Positions 17,032-21,473 of a DNA stretch of 64,000 nucleotides are shown here, one piece after another (position 1 is the stretch's first letter; every line of letters starts with the position of its first letter). Origin of the DNA: Flavobacteriaceae bacterium GSB9. GTDB lineage: Bacteria > Bacteroidota > Bacteroidia > Flavobacteriales > Flavobacteriaceae. The notes beneath the pieces are model-generated. The model saw only the letters and a list, made by a program, of their open reading frames with translations. It did not search any database and was not told the origin of the DNA. Position numbers and translations under genes: made by a program. The DNA is taken from positions 868,001 through 932,000 of the forward strand of contig CP062007.1 in NCBI GenBank assembly GCA_022749295.1. The letters are read 5' to 3'.

Positions 17032-17358
17032 CTAATGGTGCACTGGGTCCTGTGTACATGGGCAGTTGCTTATGCCCTGCAGGAAGTCGAGGCCTATGGT
17101 GACCACGTGCGTTCCGGAGTTGTACCCCGACAGGTCGTTGGTTGTGACCTGGTAGGCGTACCCAAAATATAAAATGAATTTCTTGAATCCCACCATGGGG
17201 CCGATGTTGAGCGGCCTAAAAAACTGGTCGTTCAAAAAGCGGTACGATATGACCGCACAGTAATAGTCCATATAATTGAACAAGGTTTTGTCCAAAAGTT
17301 TGCATACTTACCAAAAGAAAGAAAGTAACCTCCCCATTTTTAAAGTAGGCATTTTCAT
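17032..17358 (-). pseudogene. PorP/SprF family pseudogene (N-terminal start plus C-terminal end)
   Basis: The C-terminal 85 codons encode a recognisable PorP/SprF barrel end: IGPMVGFKKFILYFGYAYQ, then TNDLSGYNSGTHVVTIGLDF and a cysteine-rich tail GISNCPCTQ. In the same frame upstream, an ATG at 17358 begins a signal-like start (PTLKMGRLLSFFW) that meets a TAA at 17310. An intact PorP/SprF has about 300 residues, so the middle is gone and one stop interrupts what is left. The coding part from about 17035 to 17230 is visibly GC-richer, with C/G-ending codons, than the AT-rich flanks. That suggests a gene from another background that has since decayed. Confidence 0.7.
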
Positions 17359-17431: not shown

Positions 17432-20032
17432 TTATTTTTCAATTTTAACCATTGACATTTTACTATTATAGGGTTCGGTTCCTTTTTTACTTAGTGCTGA
17501 CCTCGCTTGATTTATATCATCAAATTTTTGATAATAAATATAATATTTACTGGTGTTTACATCGAAGAAGAAATCAATATCTGAACGACCAGCCGAAACA
17601 GCTTTAGTTAAAAATTCGTCTCTTTTATCTACGTCTGCATGAACGGCTACCACTAGGTAATAACCTTCGTCGACATGGGTACTTCCTTTAACAATTTGAA
17701 TATTACTTAATTCTTCACCATGATCAAAATCCTCTGGTGTTAAGGTTTTTGAAGTTGGTTGCGTAATCGTTTTTATTTGCTCTAATGCTGCTCTGTCTTT
17801 ATTGTACCTGTCTTCCTGATTATCATATAACGCACGTTTAATTCTACGTTTACGTTCAATTTCTGTAGCTACTTTTACTCTATTAAATTTGGCGAGTATA
17901 GCTGCACGAGCTTGAATAGCCTGAGTTTGATTTTCTTTTAGAGTATTGATTGTTTTAAAGTAGAACTTATTGGTTTCATCTCGTTTGTCTCTTACATTCT
18001 TAAGTCTCTCGCTATAAAGCTCTTCTAACTCTTCTATTTTTTGATCTTGAGATTTTATCTCTTCGTTCAATTGTGTTTTAATAGATTCTAATTTAGCATT
18101 TTCTGCACTTACACTTTTAAATGGTTTTGGGGCACTAACAATACCTTGCTCACTTAAATCGTTTTCTTCTTTTAAATCTTTTAAATCTTTTTCTTTTACA
18201 ACTAAAACTTCATTCAACTGAATCATCAATTGCTTTTGATTGTTTTGTGTTTCTAAAGCTAATTTTGTTATCGTACTGAGCGCATCTGTATTAGCGTCTG
18301 TTGGCTCTGGTATATCCATATCATTTTCTGAAACCTCAGAAACCTTCTCGGCCGTTAATCGCGCTTGCTCTTCCTGTTCAGCTTTGATTCTGGCTTCCTC
18401 TGCCAATCTAGCCTGCTCTTCCTGTTGGGCTTTGATTCTGGCTTCTTCTGCTAACCTAGCCTGCTCTTCCTGTTCAGCCTTGATTCTGGCTTCTTCTGCC
18501 AATCTAGCTTGCTCTTCTTGTTCAACCTTGATTCTGGCTTCCTCTGCCAATCTAGCTTGCTCTTCTTGTTCAGCCTTGATTGTGGCTTCCTCTGCCAATC
18601 TAGCCTGCTCTTCTTGCTCAGCTTTGATTCTGGCTTCTTCTGCTAATCTAGCTTGCTCTTCTTGCTCAGCTTTGATTCTGGCTTCTTCTGCTAATCTAGC
18701 TTGCTCTTCCTGTTCAGCCTTGATTGTGGCTTCTTCTGCTAATCTAGCCTGCTCTTCCTGTTCAGCCTTGATTCTGGCTTCTTCTGCTAATCTAGCCTGC
18801 TCTTCCTGTTCAGCCTTGATTCTGGCTTCTTCTGCTAATCTAGCCTGCTCTTCCTGTTCAGCCTTGATTGTGGCTTCCTCAGCTATTTCTTCTTGGGTAT
18901 CGACTGTTTTCGAAACATCTTCCTCGTTTTCAGGTTCGGCAATTTGATTTGTTACAACTTCTTCGCTTTTTTCAAGAACCGCCTCGGTTTCCACTTTTTC
19001 CTGTGGCTTTTTAACCGTTTTTGCTCTCGGAATTGTTCTTCTACCTGCGATTCTAGATGTTTTTCTTTTTTCAGGAATCAACAAAGCTTGTTCGTCATCA
19101 TCTCCACTGTAGTTATAACGGTATCTATTTTTAAACTTATATGCCAAAGTAATATCGTGCGAATTTCCGAAAGAAGACAAATCTCCCATAGCCTTTTCAT
19201 AGTTGTATTCTATAGCTATTTGACTTGTAATGTTCAACCCAATTCCAGCAGACATGCCATAAAGTGTATTATACCCAACTTGTCCCCAGATACCTTTTGG
19301 CACCGTTAACATAGCGATAGCAGAAATAACCGTTTCGTCCTTTCTAAATTCTGATCGCAACAAACTGGTAAACTTACTTTCGTCAAAAAAACCCCGACTG
19401 TTTACATACCCTGTGTACATGATATGGCCTTGAATGGCTTGTTTAGGGTTTTCTTCAATCATTTTAGACTCAGTTAAATTATAAGACACTAAATTGTTTA
19501 CCGATACTCCAAAATCAAAAAAACCAGTACCATAATTTATTCCTGGGTTAACCGTTATTAATGAATTTGAAGGCACATCATCCAATGATGAATCTGGAAA
19601 ATTGGTAACGACATTTCCCTGATTTATTCCACTTTTATAGAACGCTAAATTTATCCCAAAGGTTAAATTGCTTTCTCTATCGAACACCGCATTGTAAGCG
19701 AAGTTGGCTACACCGCCAAAGGTGGTCATTACCCCATAATTTTGTTGAAAAAGAGACAAACCAGCTCCCATGTTTTCACCAAACCGACCAGCATAGCCAA
19801 ACAAATACGTTTGTGGTGCATCATCAAACTGCACCCATTCCCTTTTGTTGTTAAAGCTCAAATATTTGTTTTGCTCCCTAACGAAACTAAAAGTTGGGTT
19901 TATGATGTGGCGATTGAATTTCAACGAATTTCGAACCGGTATATCGAACGCAACAACTCCATCACCCGTTTGGGGATAGAACAACTGTACAAAACAGAAA
20001 ATTAAGATAATATGTACTATTCGTTTTGCCAT
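17432..20032 (-). CDS. PorP/SprF type IX secretion membrane protein with repeat, coiled-coil and SPOR-like domains
   Basis: The ATG at 20032 gives the signal peptide (IVHIILIFCFVQLFYPQ); the upstream ATG would overlap the previous gene. Of 866 residues, about 20-310 form the PorP/SprF barrel. Next come a basic linker (KRKTSRIAGRRTIPRAK), an acidic stretch, 11 copies of a 16-residue repeat (KAEQEEQARLAEEARI type), more coiled coil, and a C-terminal SPOR-like alpha/beta domain (YYLVVAVHADVDKRDEFL, KYYIYYQKFDDINQARSAL). Usual PorP/SprF proteins stop after the barrel. The fusion could hold an outer-membrane T9SS component to the cell wall through a long periplasmic helix. It lies one base after the T9SS cargo gene, so the two are probably one operon. 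Confidence 0.85.
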   Translation of the reverse strand: MAKRIVHIILIFCFVQLFYPQTGDGVVAFDIPVRNSLKFNRHIINPTFSFVREQNKYLSFNNKREWVQFDDAPQTYLFGYAGRFGENMGAGLSLFQQNYGVMTTFGGVANFAYNAVFDRESNLTFGINLAFYKSGINQGNVVTNFPDSSLDDVPSNSLITVNPGINYGTGFFDFGVSVNNLVSYNLTESKMIEENPKQAIQGHIMYTGYVNSRGFFDESKFTSLLRSEFRKDETVISAIAMLTVPKGIWGQVGYNTLYGMSAGIGLNITSQIAIEYNYEKAMGDLSSFGNSHDITLAYKFKNRYRYNYSGDDDEQALLIPEKRKTSRIAGRRTIPRAKTVKKPQEKVETEAVLEKSEEVVTNQIAEPENEEDVSKTVDTQEEIAEEATIKAEQEEQARLAEEARIKAEQEEQARLAEEARIKAEQEEQARLAEEATIKAEQEEQARLAEEARIKAEQEEQARLAEEARIKAEQEEQARLAEEATIKAEQEEQARLAEEARIKVEQEEQARLAEEARIKAEQEEQARLAEEARIKAQQEEQARLAEEARIKAEQEEQARLTAEKVSEVSENDMDIPEPTDANTDALSTITKLALETQNNQKQLMIQLNEVLVVKEKDLKDLKEENDLSEQGIVSAPKPFKSVSAENAKLESIKTQLNEEIKSQDQKIEELEELYSERLKNVRDKRDETNKFYFKTINTLKENQTQAIQARAAILAKFNRVKVATEIERKRRIKRALYDNQEDRYNKDRAALEQIKTITQPTSKTLTPEDFDHGEELSNIQIVKGSTHVDEGYYLVVAVHADVDKRDEFLTKAVSAGRSDIDFFFDVNTSKYYIYYQKFDDINQARSALSKKGTEPYNSKMSMVKIEK
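18353..18888 (-). repeat. Tandem 48-bp repeat, 11 copies, with 144-bp higher-order period
   Basis: Each unit of 48 bases codes for 16 residues of charged helix. Copies 1, 4 and 7, counted from the N-terminal side, read ATIKAEQ while those between read ARIKAEQ, so blocks of three units were themselves duplicated. One copy has KVEQ and one KAQQ. Units are highly similar at the DNA level, so the copy number is likely to vary between strains. Confidence 0.9.
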
Positions 20033-20033
20033 G

Positions 20034-21473
20034 TTATTTAACAACTGTAATGGAACCTTTTTTTTCACTTCCACCAGCTGGTTTTATTATATAGTAATAG
20101 ACTGGGTTAACGTCTATAAAATTAATTTGATTTTGTGGCCAGTTATTTTGATAGTTATTCGTTTTAAGTACTACTTTACCTTGGCTACTTAATATTGTTA
20201 TTTCTGTATTAGAACCATCAACGTATTGTTGAGGAATAACCCAAGTATCGTTTACCCCATCGCCATTTGGAGAAATTAAATTTGGAATTTCTGGCACATC
20301 GGGAAAAGCTTCTTGAACCACAAAACTGAATTCTGTTGAAGCCAAACAATCTGCTGTTTGGTTGATCTCTACTCTATAGTTTCCGGTTTGCGTAATTTGA
20401 AAATTATTTGTGGTTGCACTTGCTATTAAATTGTCATTTAAATACCATTTAAATTCTGGATTTTTGGCATCTGTGGTAACTGTTGCCGTTAAGGTTTCAT
20501 TTTCATCAATCATTTCAACATCTTCCACATCAATCGAACTTGAAAACCCCGTACTATCCAAATCTATAGAAGCGCTGGTTGAGCAATCTCCTAAATCGAC
20601 CGTTACAGAATAATTACCAGATTCGGAGGCTTCATACATTTGTTGTGTTGCTCCTTCTATTGCACCTCCATCCTTATACCATTGGTAGCTATTTCCGTTT
20701 ACGGCACTTAAAACACTAGGCCCTTCGGCTGAACAAAAAGGATTACCCTTACTCGAATTTATTTCAAATGTACTTTGCGTGGTCGCCTCACTTATAGTAA
20801 CTCGGTTTGAAAATGAATTTGAGGTACAAGTACCGTAATTGGTTTCAACAAAATAAGTACCGGGCTCATTAACCGAAAGGCTTGGTCCGTCTGCAACAAA
20901 AACCGATGTTGTGGAACCCGTTTCTTTAAACCACTTAAACGTAAGGGATGGGTATTGAAGTGGAGAATCGTTATTCTCATCGCCAGGATTGTCTATTGTC
21001 AACAAATAGCTTCCTCCAGAACAATAGGCGCCTGTTGCAATTAAGTTGTTAATCGTAAATGGTGTATCTTGAATTTTATAATAGGCAGCAAACTGATTTG
21101 AAGGTGAACTGGACGCTGCAGGAGCTGTACTCCTTATTTTTATTTTATACCCTTCCCCTGAAATGGTTGTTGGTACCGCAAAGTTTATGGTTGCTGGTGA
21201 AGTTGTAATACTGCCTGCATTTGAAGTGAAAACGGTTGTGGGATTTGAAAAATCGCCAGTTTCATCAGACAATTCAACTATAAATTGGTTTGAACTTTCT
21301 AGCGCAGTATCAGGCGAAAAAGAGAACGTAACATTATAGGTATTGAATGAAGGGCTAGCACAAGCTTGTGTAAACCCCAAGCTAGGCTTTGCTATAACAA
21401 TTTGCGTATGTAACTTTTCCACAAATGAAAAGAACAAAAGAAAAACAAATGTGACGATAGTAAAATTCTTCAT
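20034..21473 (-). CDS. T9SS type B sorting domain-containing surface protein
   Basis: A 479-residue secreted protein with an N-terminal signal peptide (FTIVTFVFLLFFSFVEKLHT). Residues about 140-380 hold repeated Ig/PKD-like beta modules with paired cysteines (YQWYKDGGAIEGATQQMYEA, FKWYLNDNLIASAT). The last 85 residues are the gliding-motility-associated CHU_C domain (PNLISPNGDGVNDTWVIP ... YYYIIKPAGGSEKKGSITVVK). That domain sends cargo through the type IX secretion system to the cell surface. The PorP/SprF fusion gene follows one base downstream. In flavobacteria, type B cargo genes often sit beside a PorP/SprF gene needed for their own export. Confidence 0.9.
   Translation of the reverse strand: MKNFTIVTFVFLLFFSFVEKLHTQIVIAKPSLGFTQACASPSFNTYNVTFSFSPDTALESSNQFIVELSDETGDFSNPTTVFTSNAGSITTSPATINFAVPTTISGEGYKIKIRSTAPAASSSPSNQFAAYYKIQDTPFTINNLIATGAYCSGGSYLLTIDNPGDENNDSPLQYPSLTFKWFKETGSTTSVFVADGPSLSVNEPGTYFVETNYGTCTSNSFSNRVTISEATTQSTFEINSSKGNPFCSAEGPSVLSAVNGNSYQWYKDGGAIEGATQQMYEASESGNYSVTVDLGDCSTSASIDLDSTGFSSSIDVEDVEMIDENETLTATVTTDAKNPEFKWYLNDNLIASATTNNFQITQTGNYRVEINQTADCLASTEFSFVVQEAFPDVPEIPNLISPNGDGVNDTWVIPQQYVDGSNTEITILSSQGKVVLKTNNYQNNWPQNQINFIDVNPVYYYIIKPAGGSEKKGSITVVK

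Follow-up and report, generated by a model that had tools for sequence, protein, structure and literature searches.

The gliding operon of Flavobacterium johnsoniae has the gene order sprC-sprD-sprB-sprF, and SprC and SprD were reportedly named as gliding proteins in 2011. The SprD of this organism is Fjoh_0980 (PMC12045153), and it is described as necessary for gliding in a passage of PMC11885536 that cites the result. Two ways in which a carrier of the PorP/SprF type is coupled to the inside of the cell envelope have been described. In the first, the Cys-x-Cys tail of SprF, the mobile carrier of SprB, is disulfide-bonded to GldK of the moving gliding track (PMC12635249). In the second, the carrier has a neighboring PorE whose OmpA-type domain binds peptidoglycan, and a static state has been proposed for carriers of this kind (PMC9143113, PMC12618676). 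In this study, we analyzed a stretch of 64,000 nucleotides from Flavobacteriaceae bacterium GSB9 (the whole stretch is hereafter called the window) that encodes a carrier barrel with a long tail ending in a SPOR-like domain. In the literature searched, we found no description of SprD as a carrier whose barrel is followed by a SPOR-fold tail, and both this combination and the mutually exclusive classes of carrier tail appear to be undescribed there.

Identity and operon context of the gene

We consider the gene at 17432..20032 on the minus strand of the window to be almost certainly sprD and the cargo gene upstream of it (20034..21473, minus strand) to be sprC. The cargo gene encodes a 479-aa secreted protein, the presumed cargo of SprD, in which Pfam detects Ig_7 and a type B T9SS sorting domain (CHU_C, E 9e-15). 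A single base separates the two genes.

The names are based on synteny and on the position of a published sprD primer. Among 299 sampled Flavobacteriaceae genomes, 88 have a match to the last 281 residues of SprD, and in 85 of these it is strong; a scan of named genomes placed SprD-type homologs in Algibacter, Bizionia, Tamlana, Lacinutrix, Flavobacterium and other genera. An ORF of 400-560 aa, which is the size expected for a cargo of ~480 aa, lies 0-6 nt upstream in 61 of the 66 full-length homolog loci, and a long ORF lies downstream of sprD in all 62 loci with enough sequence. In a sibling genome of the same genus, the giant downstream protein is SprB, with 11 SprB-repeat stretches and a CHU_C domain; that genome has the gene order sprC-sprD-sprB-sprF-TonB receptor, and its synteny with the window extends to either side of the locus. 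Moreover, deletion primer 1296 is described as beginning at the last 33 bp of sprD (PMC9870892). In two Flavobacterium genomes (L175 and L174), this primer has a single mismatch and lies exactly 33 bp before the end of the gene; the exact published primer sequence occurs in none of the 121 sampled genomes of the Flavobacterium group. Because the order of cargo gene, sprD and long ORF is conserved and the primer falls at the published position, the gene is most readily identified as sprD.

The sequence-only reading had described a barrel gene separated by one base from the gene of a type B cargo, and this description was borne out both by the CHU_C match in the window and by the cargo-size ORFs that adjoin the same fusion in other Flavobacteriaceae. 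It had also taken the fusion to be a departure from the PorP/SprF design, but the fusion is no one-off. A barrel joined to SPOR is how SprD, a gliding protein that is known but little understood, normally occurs, and it is found in at least 85 of the 299 sampled Flavobacteriaceae genomes.

All that the window keeps of sprB and sprF between sprD and the TonB receptor gene is the beginning of the former and the final 237 bp of the latter. The sprB remnant (17271..17358, minus strand) consists of the leader followed by a stop, and the region covering the end of sprD and the start of sprB is an 82% match to the sibling genome G159. The remnant of the sprF 3′ end (17032..17269, minus strand), which includes the Cys-Pro-Cys tail, still codes for SNCPCTQDPVHH. 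An intact sprB-sprF pair lies ~0.2 Mb away in the same genome, and the scar is 98.3% identical over 237 bp to the end of that distant sprF (G000:C1:1104312-1105295) compared with 80% for the sprF end of the sibling. A probable history is that sprB-sprF, or sprF at the least, was duplicated in this lineage and then deleted at the original site. An assembly fault is an unlikely cause of the broken locus because the genome is a single contig. Since sprB and most of sprF are deleted at this locus, SprC and SprD are retained without a neighboring SprB-SprF. The scar lies at 17032-17358 of the window (minus strand), and the other loci of this comparison are L196:4612-15295 and L199:6018-15316.

Architecture of SprD and its C-terminal domain

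From ORF reading and translation, sprD encodes 866 aa counted from the ATG. A GTG start (880 aa) was discarded because the ATG at 20032 preserves the conserved 1-nt spacing to sprC, and a plus-strand ORF at 18240-18947 (235 aa) was discarded as an antisense reading of the repeat. All of the following features lie on the minus strand. The signal peptide (19970..20032, approximately residues 1-21) carries the only cysteine of the protein, and the mature protein has none. The PorP/SprF beta-barrel (19124..19969, residues 22-303) is matched by Pfam PorP_SprF (PF11751) over residues 30-298 (E 3.9e-46, 158 bits against a cutoff of 22.3), by TIGR03519 over residues 7-300 (167 bits against a cutoff of 90.55) and by our own HMM, which ends at residue 303. 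A linker with a basic first half and an acidic second half (18884..19123, residues 304-383) leads into eleven tandem 16-residue repeats (AEEARIKAEQEEQARL; 18356..18883, residues 384-559), which are rich in E, R and K and of the single-helix type. TRF detects this repeat as a 48-bp tandem unit with 10.8 copies and 93% matches at 18366-18885, and at the protein level there are 11 units of exactly 16 residues each. Opposite-charge pairs at i/i+4 score 0.186 in the repeat versus 0.015 in shuffles (shuffle maximum 0.077), and such an excess is expected for a stable single helix. The repeat is followed by a conserved helical region (17735..18355, residues 560-766), which was delimited from alignments and AF2 helices, and by a C-terminal SPOR-fold domain (17435..17734, residues 767-866), which was delimited with AF2, Foldseek and hhalign. 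AF2 places four helices at residues 587-756 with a mean pLDDT of 88. The barrel, the basic linker, the 11 equal-size repeats and the further helical stretch proposed from the sequence alone for this 866-residue protein were therefore recovered by PF11751, TIGR03519, TRF, the unit count and AF2.

Conservation is concentrated at the end of the protein. In the family alignments, the final ~280 residues are strongly conserved, with a mean column identity of 61-71%, and the helical region contains the motifs DLKDLKEENDLSEQGI...PKPFKS and ERKRRIKRAxYDNxxDRYxKD. The variable region between the barrel and the conserved end spans about 70 to 1050 residues across homologs. Expanded charged repeats occur in SprD of Flavobacterium branchiicola (1635 residues, L177), F. 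defluvii (1483 residues, L175) and F. frigidimaris (1220 residues, L174). Several draft contigs (L019, L021, L024, L031, L032, L124, L129 and L130) stop within sprD; the probable cause is the tandem repeat, at which assemblies would break.

The Pfam SPOR model does not reach the C-terminal domain, which has diverged too far. Pfam SPOR (PF05036) gave no match in the window protein at E<=1 and its gathering score was not reached, the NCBIfam models gave no SPOR match in this protein, none of 48 family C-termini was matched by Pfam SPOR, and a sequence-profile search of the PDB with the SprD C-terminus returned no match. Weak matches to Transcrip_reg, DUF6461 and ILEI fell below their own cutoffs and were treated as noise. 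In AF2, the last 101 residues model with confidence as an RNP-like beta-alpha-beta-beta-alpha-beta domain that spans 80 residues (pLDDT 88, pTM 0.79), and the best two Foldseek matches among 350,542 PDB chains are the SPOR domains of CwlC (1x60, probability 0.87) and DedD (6ztg, probability 0.97), each of which alone reaches only E 0.06-0.07. The domain was folded separately because a 281-residue model of the SprD end gave helical-bundle matches only. Using hhalign, the C-terminal profile of SprD matched a Pfam-positive SPOR profile at 96.1% (P 2.8e-9), a score that falls to 82% once PorP-linked SPOR domains are excluded; 100 column shuffles gave a median of 0.3% and a 95th percentile of 2.2%, with a single outlier at the maximum of 56.5%. 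Furthermore, syntenic SprD orthologs in other genera exceed the Pfam SPOR cutoff of 21 (31.0 bits in L258 and 29.9 bits in L261), as do PorP proteins from other families of the order (L214, L220 and L224). Based on the profile, the fold and the orthologs, we consider the C-terminus of the window protein to be very probably a diverged SPOR domain despite the absent Pfam match. The earlier suggestion of a SPOR-like C-terminus thus agrees with hhalign, with Foldseek and AF2 and with the orthologs, but not with the Pfam SPOR HMM, which is silent on the window protein.

Related domains also occur in other settings. SprD orthologs in other genera (L258-L262) contain two or three SPOR domains, and the SprC that accompanies them is longer (~730-790 aa). 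A protein with four LysM domains (L085:6471-8390) bears an SprD-type helical region and C-terminal SPOR-like region, and in HU-CCDC81-SPOR proteins of several Flavobacteriaceae (L078-L084), a second domain at the C-terminus is homologous to the tail of SprD. The HU-CCDC81-SPOR protein of the window genome is without such a second domain.

Tail classes of PorP carriers and the possible role of SprD

The tails of 116 PorP genes, among the matches listed for a 27-genus sample (L196-L198, L229-L337 and the window), were surveyed. This survey favors high-scoring matches, carriers within one class are probably related, and a PorE neighbor is a similarity call within 400 nt. Among the matches listed, 19 of the 116 genes encode a short Cys-x-Cys tail, and none of these 19 has a PorE neighbor or the PRFF/PRYF-like motif that sits beyond the last strand. 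A PorE neighbor accompanies 67 of the 116, and every one of these 67 carriers has a PRFF-like end and none has Cys-x-Cys. Long tails were found in eight of the listed carriers, including that of the window; all eight have a SPOR match, and neither Cys-x-Cys nor a PorE neighbor occurs in any of them. Another 22 of the 116 listed genes have neither Cys-x-Cys, PorE nor a long tail, and 14 of these end in a PRFF-like motif, so the classes fall short of covering all carriers. The exclusivity of the short tails among the matches listed (Fisher 4e-10 and 2e-15) could partly reflect the ancestry of the carrier subfamilies. The PRFF/PRYF-like C-terminus is possibly a PorE docking peptide. The window SprD has no SprF-type Cys-x-Cys tail and lacks the PorE-like neighbor and the short tail of PorE-linked carriers. 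In addition, no Cys-x-Cys pair occurs in any of 114 long family members, which indicates that a disulfide of the SprF type is not usable by SprD.

These classes tentatively suggest that three interchangeable tails decide the fate of the adhesin, namely, a Cys-x-Cys tail leading to the track, a PRFF peptide docking to wall-bound PorE, and, in SprD, a fused helix with a SPOR-fold domain. With the same reserve, SprD may be read as a self-contained carrier adapter to the wall or the track, in which case the type of tail would predict the behavior of the adhesin. If the tail classes hold, whether a type B adhesin is mobile or fixed could be read from the last residues of its carrier, and tail swaps would directly probe how adhesins of Bacteroidota are sorted between the gliding track and the wall.

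The best explanation of SprD, which we regard as reasonably probable, is that it is the carrier of SprC with a one-chain periplasmic coupling, which would be a third route beside Cys-x-Cys/GldK and PorE. According to this explanation, SprD would be a PorP/SprF-type carrier dedicated to SprC, a pairing that is suggested by gene adjacency. Its barrel would take SprC from the SprA translocon and keep it at the cell surface, and its tail would enter the periplasm as a charged helix of variable length, followed by a conserved bundle of helices and then the SPOR-fold domain. The single-chain tail would replace the SprF-GldK disulfide or the separate wall-gripping PorE lipoprotein, and it suggests that a third type of tether, besides the two that are known, connects surface adhesins with structures within the cell envelope.

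Which partner the tail would hold is a more tentative matter. We lean toward the gliding machinery because movement of SprC along the gliding track has been reported in F. johnsoniae (PMC12635249, through a citation of the Kjaer thesis and one figure panel) and because the motifs of the helical bundle are strongly conserved; direct binding of wall glycan by the tail is a close second. GldJ is present in 286 of 299 genomes of the family and is thus nearly universal, so the co-occurrence of SprD with the track is uninformative.

The sequence-only reading proposed a physical link from the outer-membrane T9SS part to peptidoglycan. As a static wall anchor, SprD would attach to the glycan strands of peptidoglycan through its SPOR-fold domain and thereby pin SprC-SprD, as a one-chain equivalent of PorP-PorE. 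We consider this model possible but doubtful. It is consistent with the fold, with the homology to peptidoglycan-binding SPOR domains, and with the presence of the SprD C-terminal domain in the four-LysM protein (L085) and as the second domain of HU-SPOR proteins (L078). It also agrees with the finding that a long SPOR tail and a PorE neighbor never occur together (116 PorP genes among the matches listed), and published proposals describe PorE-linked carriers as static (PMC12618676, PMC9143113). However, the reported mobility of SprC on the track argues against simple static anchoring. RlpA-SPOR contacts glycan through Gln, Phe and Arg (Q270, F274 and R309; PMC6895207), and these positions align by hand to V, H and Y in SprD; Bacteroidota HU-SPOR domains are without the Gln as well. 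Because these contact residues are not conserved, we can only infer a link to peptidoglycan. Moreover, the strongest conservation in the helical bundle resembles a protein-binding surface, and the longest variable region (~1050 residues) would extend ~150 nm at 0.15 nm per residue, if helical throughout, which is far too long for a radial strut. A passive spacer without a specific ligand, in which the repeat helix and tail only separate the barrel from its neighbors or set its distance from the wall, would suit the variation in the number of repeats and in the length of the middle part (about 70 to 1050 residues) and the low-complexity, TolA-like composition of the repeats, but it is improbable because such a spacer needs neither ~280 conserved terminal residues (61-71%) nor a folded C-terminal domain.

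Comparison with known systems

Coupling of SprC through a single chain can be compared with several described arrangements. The window shares the adjacency of sprC and sprD with the sprCDBF operon of F. johnsoniae, and in relatives the gene order and the position of the published sprD primer agree with that operon. However, the window locus is missing sprB and most of sprF, and in comparison with Fjoh_0980, the repeat unit and copy number are lineage-specific. SprF has the same PorP/SprF barrel as SprD and, likewise, an adjoining cognate type B cargo gene, but its short Cys-x-Cys tail bonds GldK (PMC12635249), whereas the mature part of SprD has no cysteine. In the PorP-PorE-PG1035 system of P. 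gingivalis and other PorE-linked carriers, the barrel is likewise tied to the periplasmic side and holds a type B cargo. In those systems, an OmpA-type lipoprotein binds the wall as a protein of its own, whereas SprD carries its SPOR-fold domain on the same chain as the barrel and has no PorE gene next to it.

The layout of SprD is also shared by PorP_SprF proteins with SPOR domains in L214, L220, L224 and L263/L264, in which the barrel, a linker and SPOR lie over the Pfam cutoffs, but the linkers of these proteins are shorter than that of SprD. Those of the last pair (L263:3481-5373 and L264:3560-5506) represent another PorP-SPOR protein outside the sprCDBF operon; the gene adjoins one for a LuxR-type regulator and another for a conserved, functionally uncharacterized protein of ~415 aa, and no sprC-like cargo gene was seen upstream of the PorP-SPOR gene. 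Finally, TolA domain II and SPOR proteins of the FtsN/DamX type have a long charged, Ala-rich helix or linker that leads to a wall-side C-terminal domain, and the tail of SprD resembles this layout. However, TolA and FtsN/DamX are anchored in the inner membrane, whereas SprD is anchored by its outer-membrane barrel.
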